This document shows, one piece after another, positions 31,078 to 36,139 of a stretch of 64,000 nucleotides of DNA. How positions within the stretch are numbered: position 1 is the stretch's first letter; each line of letters starts with the position of its first letter. The translations under genes and the position numbers were made by a program. This DNA comes from Lactiplantibacillus brownii (lineage in GTDB: Bacteria > Bacillota > Bacilli > Lactobacillales > Lactobacillaceae): assembly GCF_031085375.1 (NCBI RefSeq), contig NZ_JAVCWF010000001.1:2666001-2730000 (forward strand), given 5' to 3'. A model generated the notes under the pieces. The model had not been told where the DNA came from. It worked only from the letters and a program-made list of their open reading frames with translations, and did no database searches.

Positions 31078-31117
31078 TCTCCCAGCGCAATTAGTTGCAG
31101 CCGGTAGCGTTTGCAAT

Positions 31118-31334
31118 TATAATAGTCGCAGATTGATAGAAAGTGTGTAACCAACTATCAATCATTAATATTCTTTAGTTTTTAGATTGTGGTCGGTGTT
31201 GCTGCCATAATACCGATTAACAATCACATTCATTCATAGACTCCCCCAAGTCTTATGAATGGGGTTCATCAAAGCCCCCACTTTGATGTTTCCTACTCCT
31301 TGACCACTGCATCCTTGATGTGGTGGCTTTTTTT
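31118..31334 (+). ncRNA. Small RNA with C-rich hairpin loops (sRNA-5), with promoter
   Basis: Promoter TTGCAG (31095-31100), 17-bp spacer, TATAAT (31118-31123); start near 31130. Hairpin CATTCATAGACT/AGTCTTATGAATG has loop CCCCCA (31243-31248). Hairpin CATCAAAG/CTTTGATG has loop CCCCCA (31275-31280). A linker TTTCCTACTCCTT then leads to a terminator CCACTGCATC/GATGTGGTGG with T7 (31328-31334). No ORF fits. The two loops and the CCTACTCCTT linker match the sRNAs at 34.3-36.0 kb; the loops could pair with GGGGG/GGAGG ribosome binding sites. Confidence 0.75.
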
Positions 31335-31349
31335 GTGCAGCTTGCCGTT

Positions 31350-31490
31350 CCGGTTGGTCTGGATTGATGCTGGAACGTGGTGGCTACGTTTGTGAGCCAA
31401 AAGGCAGTCTCACAAGCCGGGCTTTTCCTAAGCTGGAAATTCACCAGCAAAGGAAAACTTCACCACTGAGCATCATCCAGCCTGTCCTGT
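31350..31490 (-). repeat. Family A structured intergenic element, copy A4
   Basis: Reverse orientation; nearly identical to A1. Hairpin 1 TTTTCCT/AGGAAAA, hairpin 2 GTGAG/CTCAC. Confidence 0.8.
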
Positions 31491-31548
31491 ACTAAATAGC
31501 ACTTCTAATACTAATTGGTTTTTTGTCAGGTTCTGGCTTCGCTATTAA

Positions 31549-31720
31549 CGTCGGAGTTGCCCAGCACGTTTGCCGTGTCGAGACACTTAGCTGGGCGAAC
31601 TGACCCCAGGTTAGTGTCTGGTCAACTTTTAAGACGTGGATTTCGGCTTGAAAGCGCCCTGCAGACCGGTCTTTGACTACGAGTTTGCCCCACAGCAAAC
31701 GTGCTGGCCAACGGAGACGG
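31549..31720. repeat. Family B intergenic palindromic element (full copy)
   Basis: Outer stem GTTGCCCAGCACGTTTGC with GCAAACGTGCTGGCCAAC. Inner AGACACTTAGCTGGG/CCCAGGTTAGTGTCT is identical to the 9141 copy, while TTCGC/GCGAA there is TTTGC/GCAAA here. Directly follows a family A copy. Region 31721-31846 shows nothing further. Confidence 0.8.
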
Positions 31721-31846
31721 ACAATTAATGCCGTACCTTAAAACACTAATAACAACTGTTTCACCATAAAAAGTATTAAATCCGACTGGTGCTTAATCTA
31801 CCCATACGGTAAATTCAACACCACCCGGACCTAACTAACCTTATGT

Positions 31847-32260
31847 TTAATCTTCTTCTACTTCCACTTGATGACGGCGAGCCATCAAACGTTCCTTCAC
31901 TTGTACTAAAACCCATGCTATCCCAGCAGTAAAGAGCAACAGCATTAACGTTGAGACAATAATTACGATAATAATCTGGACGCCCTCAGCCTTTAACACA
32001 TCAAGTTTCGTTACTAGTGCGACTCCAGACGGAATGAAAATCAAACTGATGATCTGCACGAAGAAGTTACTGACGCCTTCGACTTGTTCTAACTTCACGA
32101 TCTTCAACGTTAATAATAGATAGAGCAAGATCATCCCAATCAAGGCTGGCGGCATTGGGAAGCCCGGCCAAATCTGATTGACTAATTCTGAAATCAAACT
32201 ACTGACCAATAAAATCACACCATAGATCATAATTTGCTTAATAAATTTTGCTTTTTTCAT
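31847..32260 (-). CDS. lrgA: LrgA/CidA-family holin-like protein
   Basis: 137 aa with four membrane segments; FPMPPALIGMILLYLLL near residue 35 and FIPSGVALV near residue 76 match LrgA signatures. RBS AGGAGG before ATG 32260. It is 9 bp downstream of lrgB. LrgAB is implicated in pyruvate uptake and cell lysis control in other Firmicutes. In most genomes lrgA comes first; here it is second. Confidence 0.88.
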   Translation of the reverse strand: MKKAKFIKQIMIYGVILLVSSLISELVNQIWPGFPMPPALIGMILLYLLLTLKIVKLEQVEGVSNFFVQIISLIFIPSGVALVTKLDVLKAEGVQIIIVIIVSTLMLLLFTAGIAWVLVQVKERLMARRHQVEVEED

Positions 32261-32269
32261 ATACGCCTC

Positions 32270-33010
32270 CTATCCTAAACCAACTAAGTGAGCAAAGCTT
32301 GGTACCATGAAGTTCACCAAGATTCCTGCAACAACAAAGGCGATCGCGCCAGTTGCGCCAGCAGCTTCACTAACTTCAATCGCTTTAGTCGCCCCGACAG
32401 CATTCCCAGCGATACCAAAACCTAACCCTGCACCCAACGGATTTTTGTGCAGTTTGAACCAGCGGATAAAATGATCACCCAAGGCATAAATCAGGACAGA
32501 ATTTAAAATAACGGCAAAGGCCGCAATCGCTTGATCACCACCGACCGATTCAGCAACCGGTAACGCAATGGCAGTTGTTGCCGCTTGAACCAACATGGCG
32601 CCTAGCGCTTCATCCGTCAAGCCCATCAACTGAGATACCCCATAAATACCAAATAAGGACAGTAGTAACCCCAAGAATAAGGCCATCAAGATAACATCCC
32701 AATGCTTTTTAAAAATATCATTTCGTTTATATAATGGGACGGCAAACGAAACCGTCGCGGGGGCAACAAACCAGAATAACCAATCGCCACCGATTTGATA
32801 GGCTTCGTAAACTTTGTGCAATGGTGCTCGCAGGGCCGACGCAATCAATACCAGCAAACCAATCCCGAGCAACATTCCAAAAAATAATGGTTGGAATAAT
32901 ACAAAACGATTCGTCTTATGATACAAATACTCGCCAATCCCATACACCAGCACGGTTAACCCGATGCCAAAGAATGGATTATTGAGAAGATATGTCAAAA
33001 AGTTTTCCAC
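32270..33010 (-). CDS. lrgB: LrgB/CidB-family membrane protein
   Basis: About 242-246 aa and many membrane segments. Signature ATTAIALPVAESVGG and GLGFGIAGNAVGATKA near the C-terminus. GTG 33010 abuts the AAAGG RBS, so TTG 32998 (AAAGGTGG 8 bp upstream) may be the real start. First gene of a lrgB-lrgA pair. No LytSR two-component genes adjoin it. Confidence 0.88.
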   Translation of the reverse strand: MENFLTYLLNNPFFGIGLTVLVYGIGEYLYHKTNRFVLFQPLFFGMLLGIGLLVLIASALRAPLHKVYEAYQIGGDWLFWFVAPATVSFAVPLYKRNDIFKKHWDVILMALFLGLLLSLFGIYGVSQLMGLTDEALGAMLVQAATTAIALPVAESVGGDQAIAAFAVILNSVLIYALGDHFIRWFKLHKNPLGAGLGFGIAGNAVGATKAIEVSEAAGATGAIAFVVAGILVNFMVPSFAHLVGLG

Positions 33011-33181
33011 CTTTCTTCTACGTGGGAAAAAGTGTCAAAAAAATAGCGCACCCATCCGGGTCTAGTCATCATTAAAATGGTGGTTAGGCTCAGAACAGTG
33101 CGCCAACACGGCTCTAAAAATATTATGTTTTAATTATAGCAAACTAAAGGACAAATTAATAGTTTTTTGTTCAATAAGTCG

Positions 33182-34021
33182 CTAATCCACGACATAAAGC
33201 ATCAAAGCGTACGCACCGACTCCCGTATGAGTCGCAATAATTGGGCTAGTGCGTGCGACCAACAAATCCGCTTGTGGCGCCACTTCCTGCATCAATTTAC
33301 GTGGTGCCGCCGGGACTTGATCATCGCCCACATATGAGATGCCGGCCGCTTCAACCCGAGTCGTATCGGCTAACTCATTTAAAATTTGCGTCTGCGCTTT
33401 AATCAGTGCTTTCTTCCCACGACCACGTGTATATAATTTCAACTTGCCATCCACTAATTCAAAAACAAATTTCAATTTGATCAAATTAGTCACAACACCG
33501 GCAATCTTGGGGACACGACCACCTTTGACCAAATTATCTAGCGTATCGACAAACAAATAAACATGGGTCTGTTGTCGAATCACCGCAATCTTAGCTAGAA
33601 TAGTTGCCATATCGGCACCACCGTGTGCCATCCGTGCCGCCGTCAGAACTTGAAAGGCCATCCCCCGATCCGCAGACTTAGAATCCACAACGGTCACTTG
33701 ACCACTCGCTAACTGGGCCGCCTGACGCGCCGCATTAACGGTACCACTGAGGGTTTCTGTAATATGTAACGATAAGACCTGGCTCCCATCAGCGGTCAAG
33801 TTATCATAGCAGGTCACAAATTCACCAATCGGTGGCTGGCTGGTTGTTGGTAAAAGATCACTGGCTGCCATTTGGCGATCAAAATCAGCGCGTGAAATAG
33901 TCGTATCCGGGGCTAATTCGCCGCCAAAGCCGACTAATAAGGGCACAATCTGAATATCATATTGCTTAATCTCGGCAGCGGTTAATTGTACCGATGAATC
34001 TGTTACGATTTTGATGGTCAT
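33182..34021 (-). CDS. DegV-family fatty-acid-binding protein
   Basis: 279 aa. VTDSSVQLTAAEI and SQPPIGEF (Ser binds the carboxylate), VDSKSADRGMAF, GRVPKIAGVV, HTGVGAYAL. DegV proteins (FakB) deliver fatty acids to the FakA kinase for phospholipid synthesis. fakA is not in the window. Monocistronic. Confidence 0.88.
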   Translation of the reverse strand: MTIKIVTDSSVQLTAAEIKQYDIQIVPLLVGFGGELAPDTTISRADFDRQMAASDLLPTTSQPPIGEFVTCYDNLTADGSQVLSLHITETLSGTVNAARQAAQLASGQVTVVDSKSADRGMAFQVLTAARMAHGGADMATILAKIAVIRQQTHVYLFVDTLDNLVKGGRVPKIAGVVTNLIKLKFVFELVDGKLKLYTRGRGKKALIKAQTQILNELADTTRVEAAGISYVGDDQVPAAPRKLMQEVAPQADLLVARTSPIIATHTGVGAYALMLYVVD

Positions 34022-34255
34022 TTAGAATCACACTTTCAAGTTGTTTTGCCAGCAATTATAGCATGGTTCGGATGGCACACCAGTCAAAAGACTGATATCA
34101 CAACGTTTAGGAGCTTTCATAACGAAGCAATCTAATGAATTTGATTATAAACTTTGTAAAACGAATACACGCCGTTACTAAAATGGCTTAATTTTTTTCA
34201 ACTCAAAATCACGACTTTAGCGCGATGACATCATACTTTCTTCACGGCCCGCCGC

Positions 34256-34409
34256 TATACTGTATCCATAGTCATTAAGGAATTCCCCGTTTCTTGATGA
34301 CCTCCCTAACTTAGAATTCAATTACTCCCCCTAAAGTAATGAATTAATGTGTGTAGACAACCTAATTTCTTCCCTTTTTCCACCGTATTCCCCGATACGG
34401 TGGTTTTTT
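34256..34409 (+). ncRNA. Small RNA with C-rich loops (sRNA-1)
   Basis: -10 TATACT (34256-34261), start near 34268, about 142 nt. A 5-prime hairpin GTCATTAAGGAA/TTCTTGATGAC has loop TTCCCCG. Hairpin AATTCAATTACT/AGTAATGAATT has a CCCCCTA loop (34327-34331 C-run). Terminator CCACCGTAT-TCCCC-GATACGGTGG with T6. Upstream CATACTTTCTTCA (34232-34244) is also present in sRNA-2. No SD or ORF. The gap 34022-34844 otherwise holds only sRNA-2. Confidence 0.75.
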
Positions 34410-34585
34410 GTTCCACATTTGGCATCATGAATTGTCGTGAACCGTGTCTAGAATTAGCCAGGTGTCCCAAGCTGAACCTCCTAACTTTGCGATAGTAATA
34501 ACCCATCAACTCCAGGTCTAACTTATTTCAATCCAAGATCACAATTTCAGCTTTTCAGCATCATACTTTCTTCAAAAGTCCTCGC

Positions 34586-34741
34586 TATACTGTGTTCATA
34601 GTCATTGAGGAACTTCCCATTCCTGAGTGATCACTAACTTAATTCATTTACCACTCCAAGAAATGAAATTAGCTTAAACACAACCTAACTTAATTTACTT
34701 CCTTTCAACCACCGTACTTTCCCCGATACGATGGTTTTTTT
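34586..34741 (+). ncRNA. Small RNA with C-rich loops (sRNA-2)
   Basis: -10 TATACT (34586-34591), start near 34598, about 144 nt. Hairpin TCATTGAGGAA/TTCCTGAGTGA with loop CTTCCCA. Hairpin TAATTCATTT/AAATGAAATTA with loop ACCACTCCAAG. Terminator ACCACCGTA/TACGATGGT with a TTTCCCC loop and T7. The unit, including about 60 bp of upstream DNA, is a tandem duplicate of sRNA-1 that has diverged inside the stems. Confidence 0.75.
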
Positions 34742-34844
34742 GACCACTGATTCAAGTTGGTTGACGATACGATTCTTATTCACAAAGCCCAACCACTCTG
34801 ATAAAATACCCCTTAACAATCAAACTTCTAAGGAGGCGTTCTTT

Positions 34845-35543
34845 TTGTTCTATTCATTTTTCGATCCCACATATTTACTGGTCATCATTGGTTTAGCCCT
34901 CTCTATGGCAGCTTCTAGTTATGTGAACCGGACTTTTCGCCACTATGATCGGTACCGGAGTCAATCCACGACTACCGGCACGGCTGCCGCGCGCTTCATT
35001 TTGTCACAATCAGGAATTACCGATGTCGGTGTGCAAGGCATTAGTGGTGATCTGACCGATAACTACAACGGTCAGACCAAAGTATTGAGTTTGTCAGAGT
35101 CGACTGCCAATTCAACTTCTGTAGCAGCGATTGGGGTAGCAGCTCACGAATGCGGCCATGCTGTCCAAGACCATGTCAATTACTGGCCGATGCGTTTACG
35201 AACTGCCTTAGTCCCGGCGGCTAATCTAGGTTCTACCCTATCGCTACCAATTATTATTGTCGGCGTCTTATTAAGTTACAACCAAGCTTTGATCAACCTA
35301 GGCATTTTGCTCTTTTCACTGGCCTTACTTTTTCAATTAGTGACTTTACCAGTCGAATTCAACGCTTCGCGGCGCGCCTTAAAAATTCTATCTGACGGTC
35401 AAGTACTCACTCATGACGAAGTTCCCATGGTGCGTAAAGTGCTGATTGCCGCAGCGTTAACCTATGTCGCAGGTGCACTCTCAACTTTCCTACAACTGCT
35501 TCGACTAGTCCTGCTATTCGGCGGTCATCGCGATAATGATTAG
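34845..35543 (+). CDS. YugP-type neutral zinc metallopeptidase
   Basis: 232 aa from TTG 34845, set by AAGGAGG at 34830-34836; the longer frame begins inside the terminator of sRNA-2 and is not used. N-terminal span, then zinc motif AAHECGHAVQ (His101, His105 approx.), FNASRRAL, and two or more C-terminal spans. YugP/DUF554-group proteases are membrane zinc proteases of unknown substrate. The gene sits between two pairs of small RNAs. Confidence 0.85.
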   Translation: MFYSFFDPTYLLVIIGLALSMAASSYVNRTFRHYDRYRSQSTTTGTAAARFILSQSGITDVGVQGISGDLTDNYNGQTKVLSLSESTANSTSVAAIGVAAHECGHAVQDHVNYWPMRLRTALVPAANLGSTLSLPIIIVGVLLSYNQALINLGILLFSLALLFQLVTLPVEFNASRRALKILSDGQVLTHDEVPMVRKVLIAAALTYVAGALSTFLQLLRLVLLFGGHRDND

Positions 35544-35617
35544 GGGCTTAACAAATGCTTAGGGAATTCTTCACCACATTGAATTGATTCATTCACATAT
35601 TCTTCACACGGTCTGGT

Positions 35618-35782
35618 TATGATAGCATCATAGCAATTGAGGAACACCTCAACGAGCTATAACACAACCTAAAATTTTTCATTTACTCCTCCAAAGTAAT
35701 GAAATTCATAGTGACATGCGACTCCCCATCGCATGTTTACCCTACTCCTTTTTCCACCGTATTCCCCGATACGGTGGTTTTT
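35618..35782 (+). ncRNA. Small RNA with C-rich loops (sRNA-3)
   Basis: -10 TATGAT (35618-35623), start near 35630, about 153 nt. Hairpins: TTGAGG-AACA-CCTCAA; TTTCATTTACT/AGTAATGAAA with loop CCTCCAA; ACATGCGA/TCGCATGT with loop CTCCCCA (35722-35728). The linker CCTACTCCTT precedes terminator CCACCGTAT-TCCCC-GATACGGTGG with T6. The CTCCTCC core (35686-35692) is a perfect anti-Shine-Dalgarno sequence. Confidence 0.8.
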
Positions 35783-35889
35783 TGGCGCCTTTTTGGCCTA
35801 AACTGTTCAATTTACCACCTGTTTTTAGCAAACCTTACAATTAAGTAAACTTACTAGTCATGACGCTTACCTTTTAACTATCAAACGGG

Positions 35890-36040
35890 TATACTAATAA
35901 TATGGTGATTGACCTTGTCACTCAAGCACCATATCTTTTTCATTTACTCCTCCAAAGTTAATGAAAATAGTCTCGTTAGGCACTCCAACCTAACGAAACG
36001 AACTACTCCTTTTGCCGTCGCGTAAAGCGATGGTTTTTTT
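35890..36040 (+). ncRNA. Small RNA with C-rich loops (sRNA-4)
   Basis: -10 TATACT (35890-35895), start near 35900, about 140 nt. Hairpins: ATATGGTG/CACCATAT; TTTTCATTTACT/AGTTAATGAAAA with loop CCTCCAA (CTCCTCC at 35947-35953); TCGTTAGG/CCTAACGA with loop CACTCCAA. Linker ACTACTCCTT, then terminator CCGTCGC/GCGATGG with T7. Same plan as sRNA-3 with different stem sequences. Confidence 0.8.
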
Positions 36041-36139
36041 ATTACACTCTCAATCATCGACGTCGCATTTTCAGAAAGGTTGCAAACTCAAATCACTAGG
36101 GCGTATCATTAACCTGTAAAAACTTAAGGAGTTGATCTT

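Follow-up and report, generated by a model that had tools for sequence, protein, structure and literature searches.

A 64,000-nucleotide stretch of the 3.35-Mb genome of Lactiplantibacillus brownii (G000:C1:2666001-2730000, hereafter the window) carries five non-coding units, u1 to u5, which sequence comparison identifies as members of a real, conserved small RNA (sRNA) family. The units probably (roughly 0.72) represent trans-acting sRNAs with anti-Shine-Dalgarno (anti-SD) loops, which would be induced by a PieR-like regulator and would block the Shine-Dalgarno (SD) regions of genes for exported proteins. An initial annotation of the window had proposed a family of five multicopy sRNAs of this kind, comparable to LhrC and the csRNAs; the computations made here support it, namely conservation, covariation of stems, a shared promoter repeat and an excess of genes for exported proteins at complementary start sites. 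The number five, however, has to be corrected to at least seven genome-wide, as two extra copies, u6 and u7, are located outside the window. Beyond the initial annotation, the analysis adds the count of seven copies, the spread over many genera and the promoter repeat, and it puts forward candidates for the regulator and the client class.

Conservation, folding and covariation

The 26-nt core hairpin of the family was found exactly twice per genome in 21 of 21 genomes of the genus, L. brownii included. The 18-nt core TTTACTCCTCCAAAGTAA, allowing one mismatch, was present in 76 of 301 Lactobacillaceae genomes belonging to 12 of 40 genera, as compared to 2 of 301 for a backwards control. A scan of named genomes returned at least 120 stretches; among the 80 matches listed, 78 carried Lactobacillales titles, one was titled Paracoccus and one Sedimentibacter. 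Genera among these 80 included Lactiplantibacillus, Secundilactobacillus, Lacticaseibacillus, Loigolactobacillus, Levilactobacillus, Paucilactobacillus, Agrilactobacillus and others, and outside the Lactobacillaceae also Vagococcus, Trichococcus, Isobaculum and Enterococcus. Streptococcus did not occur among the 80 listed of at least 120 matches, which is no proof of absence, and a plasmid collection gave no match. At the Paracoccus-titled match (L108) the scan showed neither the promoter repeat nor a -10 box, and this match is probably due to chance. On the Sedimentibacter-titled contig (L103), the promoter and leader of the copy resemble those of Trichococcus, reflecting either contamination or transfer. 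Tandem copies were observed in Vagococcus and a related genus (L089, L143; G087:C1:815187-815602; G100:C1:1694754-1695364), with a period of 195 bases in two genomes.

Selection had been suggested to act on loops rather than stems because hairpins of different units are unlike each other, and the same holds among orthologues. The last hairpin of u6, of which 9 different versions were compared, was paired in 90 of 90 alignment cells, and 9 of its 10 positions showed two or more pair types; the third hairpin (H3) of u4 was paired in 95 of 96 cells across 12 versions within the genus. The orthologue search behind both counts partly specified the loop sequence; the u6 loop TCCCC was also invariant in a 15-row alignment made without any loop requirement. 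H3 of u5 was paired in 19 of 48 cells with a register that is seemingly off, and it counts neither for nor against. In three further loci resembling u1 the unit was conserved and its C-rich loops were invariant.

The core stem was examined in 63 sequences, all from outside Lactiplantibacillus, taken from 71 stretches of which eight were left out by hand. Pairing reached 97.2% of the cells, compared with 37-55% for slid controls. Double-changed cells numbered 44 versus 17 in shuffles, a test that is inflated by sequence kinship; two double-change pairs fall outside the 18-mer used for picking, and one of them occurred as U-A 33, A-U 24 and C-G 3 times. An early in-register count that pooled all genera (358 of 612 cells paired, 286 in shuffles) was abandoned, Lactiplantibacillus being offset by one base in register. 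A covariance model derived from the 63 sequences matched u4 (E 5.6e-6), u6 (E 1.5e-5) and u5 (E 6.7e-5). With a stricter filter the model gave 41 of 120, a lower bound since G003, G005, G016 and G020 were missed despite exact cores. Compared with shuffled flanks, the natural ones gave lower folding energies (-5.7 versus -3.4), and the loops were hardly more open (0.87 versus 0.83).

All five units proposed for the region 31118-36040 were confirmed by reading of the sequence. Each possesses a -10 box, C-rich hairpin loops and a Rho-independent terminator; the loops quoted earlier are present, and the terminator loop UCCCC, claimed for three units, was found in u2, u3 and u4. The elements, in window coordinates, are:

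31095..31334, plus strand: u1; -35-like TTGCAG 31095-31100, -10 box TATAAT 31118-31123, RNA running to the terminator
within 31095..31334, plus strand: u1 loops ACTCCCCCAAGT and CCCCCA, then CCTACTCC ahead of the terminator
34230..34246, plus strand: u2 promoter repeat, ATCATA-CTTTC-TTCACG
34256..34411, plus strand: u2; -10 box TATACT 34256-34261, 5' hairpin 34271-34301 with loop TCCCC
about 34314-34345, plus strand: u2 core hairpin, ACTCCCCCTAAAGT
34380-34403, plus strand: u2 terminator, loop CCCC
34560..34576, plus strand: u3 promoter repeat, ATCATA-CTTTC-TTCAAA
34586..34742, plus strand: u3; -10 box TATACT 34586-34591, terminator loop TCCCC
about 34640-34669, plus strand: u3 core hairpin, ACCACTCCAAG
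35592..35608, plus strand: u4 promoter repeat, TTCACA-TATTC-TTCACA, 12 of 12 positions
35618..35785, plus strand: u4; -10 box TATGAT 35618-35623, core hairpin around 35678-35703, ACTCCTCCAAAGT
35713-35737, plus strand: u4 hairpin with loop CTCCCCA, followed by CCTACTCC and by the terminator from 35754, loop CCCC
35890..36041, plus strand: u5; -10 box TATACT 35890-35895, core 35943-35960, ACTCCTCCAAAGT
35973-35996, plus strand: u5 hairpin with loop CACTCCAA, followed by CTACTCC and the terminator

Folding was compared with 200 shuffles for each unit. The z-scores of u1 (-6.05), u2 (-5.84), u4 (-6.16) and u5 (-7.05) were far below the shuffles; u3 showed the weakest, moderate fold (-2.58). The window contains 71 hairpins with a stem of at least 8, six of which have a C-rich loop, and all six reside within units (u1 1, u2 2, u3 0, u4 2, u5 1). 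G-rich loops were found in 2 of the 71, both outside units. Control DNA of the same genome (17 blocks of 20 kb, 340 kb) yielded C-rich loops in 4 and G-rich loops in 2 of 343 hairpins. The blocks were placed on a rough 150-kb grid, those near sRNA or regulator loci being omitted or moved; one block holds the top lipoprotein target described below, which is excluded from the control class lacking TTT.

The units lie at about 31.1-36.1 kb of the window, interspersed with genes for a GNAT acetyltransferase, LrgA, LrgB, a DegV protein, a zinc peptidase and a hydrolase. The genes lrgA, lrgB and degV (31847-34021) are situated on the opposite, minus strand between u1 and u2, and the Zn_peptidase_2 gene is located between u3 and u4. 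Of the two further copies, u6 (G000:C1, about 371.08-371.39 kb, minus strand) was identified by a DNA search of the own genome and u7 (from G000:C1:1258553) by a search with the promoter pattern. Both follow the same plan of promoter, core hairpin, more C-rich hairpins and terminator. The neighbours of u7 (L200 4054-4221) are presumably a LytTR-type two-component operon and a gene for a CAAX-protease-like membrane protein.

Promoter repeat and candidate regulator

A direct repeat of the type TTCACA-N5-TTCACA, matching in at least 9 of 12 positions, precedes the -10 box in 115 of 135 distinct core loci as compared to 67 of 2700 shuffles; loci with fewer than 130 bases upstream or 60 downstream were left out. 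The gap between repeat and -10 box was 9 bp in 126 of the 135 loci. By its arrangement, the repeat is a signature of two-component control with the geometry of an OmpR-family activator. The own genome has the repeat at u2, u3, u4, u6 and u7. A search of this genome for box plus -10 box with up to two mismatches found 10 places, versus 4 for the backwards control; five are the sRNA copies, with 0-1 mismatch, and the other five, each with two mismatches, are probably chance occurrences.

The own genome encodes six OmpR-type regulators. One of them (in L211, G000:C1 at about 2.029 Mb) is PieR-like, and we consider it, at slightly better than even odds, the best candidate for controlling the repeat-bearing copies. 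All 28 core-bearing genomes tested had an orthologue with at least 56% identity, as did 19 of the 30 others (Fisher P 3.3e-4, uncorrected for kinship). Eight of the 30 genomes regarded as lacking the core were judged by the 26-nt pattern only, and the covariance model finds a copy in two of them, G073 and G114; when these were moved to the core-bearing group, the ratio became 30 of 30 versus 17 of 28 (P 9.4e-5). The promoter of the PieR-like regulator shows the half-sites GCCATA, TTCACA, GCCACG and TTACAA at an 11-bp register, followed by N9 and TATACT. Furthermore, in Isobaculum a regulator 44% identical to the one of L. brownii adjoins an sRNA copy. In a box scan of the regulator regions the PieR-like promoter scored 14.0; the score proves nothing alone because the top score, 15.6, falls inside the coding region of a kinase (L216).

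The PieR-like regulator and its kinase are by far closest to PieR and PieS and score below the NCBIfam equivalog cut-offs (294.8 of 450 bits and 440.3 of 850 bits, respectively), so that they can be called PieRS-like only. We take the regulator to resemble YclJ of Bacillus subtilis, the site of which is reportedly a TTCATA direct repeat; a literature search on both terms found nothing. For Listeria, PMC12234432 describes PieRS as governing PrsA chaperones.

The same anti-SD sRNAs might instead be switched by PhoP, WalR, the LisR-like RR214, RR215 or the VanR-like RR216, an alternative that we rate as a serious one, if somewhat below even odds. The repeat and its 9-bp spacing are general for OmpR-family activators, and the boxes at the PieR-like promoter are modest evidence. 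RR215 has TTCGCG-N5-TTCACA-N9-TATAAT at its own promoter, yet it was found in just 12 of 28 core-bearing genomes (E <= 1e-55). RR214 occurs in 27 of 28 core-bearing genomes but is equally common without the core (26 of 30) and thus not discriminating. As for PhoP, the pst promoter (L212 13660-13740) likewise has N5-spaced half-sites and a 9-bp gap and is likely to contain a PhoP site; its half-sites, however, read TTTACA rather than TTCACA, and this speaks against PhoP.

Predicted targets and proposed function

The target motif ACTTTGGAGG was defined as the reverse complement of the loop half CCUCCAAAGU, with an ATG 5-10 nt downstream. Antisense matches to the sRNA genes themselves were left out, and all listed sites were read. 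Start sites with this motif occurred in 21 of 21 genomes of the genus and zero times in the backwards control. They precede open reading frames (ORFs) of 60 codons or more for 66 distinct proteins; 7 more sites had no such ORF. The 66 proteins were collapsed into 40 homology groups, export was called by a crude hydropathy rule, and 71 genes of the own genome whose GGAGG site has no TTT in front served as controls. Exported or membrane proteins made up 30 of 40 groups versus 21 of 71 controls (P 4.4e-6), or 29 groups if one tied group, with two members called cytosolic and signal, respectively, is counted as cytosolic. A signal peptide or lipobox was found in 17 of 40 groups (16 without the tie) versus 4 of 71 controls (P 4.0e-6). 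With the tie as cytosolic and without the two sites of the own genome (one membrane, one cytosolic), the values were 28 of 38 (P 1.6e-5) and 16 of 38 (P 6.5e-6). Genes for lipoproteins, secreted and membrane proteins are predicted as preferred clients.

The best candidate target is a 163-amino-acid lipoprotein without a Pfam family (start at G000:C1:2471395), which has a perfect 12-nt complement at its start site in the own genome. The same site was found before homologues (50-95% identity) in the four other genomes examined for it, giving five genomes of the 21. Among 311 sampled genes this start site forms the strongest duplex (-20.7 versus -16.6 kcal/mol for the next). An excess of exported genes appeared among ACTTTGGAGG sites, and a class bias in the duplex energies did not.

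Since the loops match ribosome-binding sites and the promoter switch is shared across relatives, the family probably acts as a brake on surface-protein production. For expression, regulator, signal, pairing and repression we infer the following course. The units would be transcribed as trans-acting sRNAs of about 140-210 nt. A kinase would sense envelope or growth stress, and an OmpR-family response regulator, most likely the PieR-like one, would bind the TTCACA-N5-TTCACA-type repeat of most copies and turn the RNAs on. Each RNA would present several C-rich loops or linkers (ACUCCUCCAAAGU, UCCCC, CUACUCC) that may pair with SD regions, best at ACUUUGGAGG, and so keep ribosomes off. Dosage and redundancy would come from the number of loops on each RNA and from the seven RNAs of the genome.

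Several observations weigh against this reading. Two copies do not conform at the promoter: u1 has an ordinary sigma-70-like promoter (TTGCAG-17-TATAAT) without the repeat, and u5 lacks a good TTCACA repeat. The PieR-like regulator is also present in the 19 of 30 genomes without the core mentioned above, its own promoters show the repeat (at least 9 of 12) in just 10 of 30 cases (two other regulators compared gave 2 of 10 each), and the co-occurrence comparison was confined to the PieR-like regulator, RR215 and RR214. The covariance model built on the 63 sequences from other genera fails to recover u1, u2, u3 and u7. The targets came from 21 genomes and the controls from one, and the hydropathy rule for export is crude. 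Over the 311 genes the exported class pairs no better than the cytosolic one (P 0.53); therefore, any regulation concerns a subset.

This absence of a bias across the proteome, together with the similarity of the loops to the anti-SD sequence, would also fit C-rich loops that bind a protein or serve as a general ribosome decoy mimicking the 3' end of 16S rRNA, without chosen mRNAs. We regard this as unlikely, as the fixed AAAGU flank, the complement of which (ACTTT) marks the start sites of exported proteins, exceeds the anti-SD sequence. Even less credible is a service to neighbouring genes, with the units acting as leaders or attenuators or being short coding genes. The location of u3 and u5 upstream of the zinc-peptidase and hydrolase genes is in line with such a role; however, the copies occupy three distant sites of the genome, each next to different genes, and every copy has its own -10 box and terminator. 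In addition, the longest inner ORF of any unit comprises 38 codons (starts ATG, GTG or TTG), and the stems covary as RNA.

If trans-acting anti-SD sRNAs are indeed encoded here, lactobacilli and their relatives, food species included, would have an sRNA regulon of their own, parallel to LhrC and the csRNAs, with a predicted regulator, binding site and client class. A little-studied two-component system would gain a testable output, and the unusual ribosome-binding site common to many lipoprotein and secreted-protein genes would be explained.

Relation to known sRNA families

Among the titles listed in searches of openly licensed papers none names this lactobacillar family, and the main text of a csRNA inventory (PMC8186281) does not mention Lactobacill-, Lactococcus or Enterococcus. 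By the features compared, the family would work like LhrC and the csRNAs, yet belongs to neither according to the membership features tested.

LhrC1-5 of Listeria monocytogenes (RF00616) are likewise multicopy, carry SD-binding CU-rich motifs in loop, linker and terminator loop, have the surface-protein target lapB and are under two-component control, as described in PMC4132741. CU-rich sites at these three places were also found in the units described here (UCCCC, ACUCC and CCUCC elements). LhrC depends on LisR via an element upstream of -53 (PMC4132741); in the family described here the repeat sits nearer, with 9 bp between its end and the -10 box. A LisR-like regulator is about equally frequent in genomes with the core (27 of 28) and without it (26 of 30). 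The LhrC cut-off of 110 bits was not reached in the window, with no match up to E 5 around the units; the best score of a relative's copy was 42.1 bits.

Streptococcal csRNAs share several copies, a two-component direct repeat close to the -10 box and anti-start-region sequences, according to PMC3091779, which reports CiaRH from streptococci only. Upstream of the -10 box, the CiaR repeat NTTAAG-N5-TTTAAG was missing in all seven own copies as well as at each of the 149 core loci. Because of this absence and the restriction of CiaRH to streptococci in that report, the family was not assigned to the csRNAs. Furthermore, the nonamer [A/C]UCCUAAA[A/C], present in all but four csRNAs, was absent from the seven own copies and turned up at 3 of the 149 core loci.

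Ref84, the Enterococcus sRNA 84 (RF02846), shares with the Vagococcus copies the UACCAAcAACAACC 5' end, a U-rich stem and ACUCCUUUU before the terminator, and differs in its hairpin loop. Its cut-off of 52 bits was not reached (best 44.8 in a relative, 27.2 for u4, 21.4 for u6), and Ref84 is likely a distant relative. One relative, whose 5' end, stem and ACUCC element match, reached 42.1 bits for LhrC and 44.8 bits for Ref84, pointing to a possible common descent. Tentatively, and with more doubt than confidence, LhrC, Ref84 and the RNAs described here might derive from one ancestral anti-SD sRNA passed between envelope two-component systems. In non-streptococcal Lactobacillales the main controller would then be PieR/YclJ-like with these RNAs as its chief output, acting as a class-wide translational brake on lipoproteins and exported proteins, and ACUUUGGAGG sites would have arisen independently in many genes.

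At the curated Rfam cut-offs neither LhrC nor Ref84 was detected in the window; the sole match was a T-box leader (RF00230, 108.6 bits) at 2085-2318 on the plus strand.

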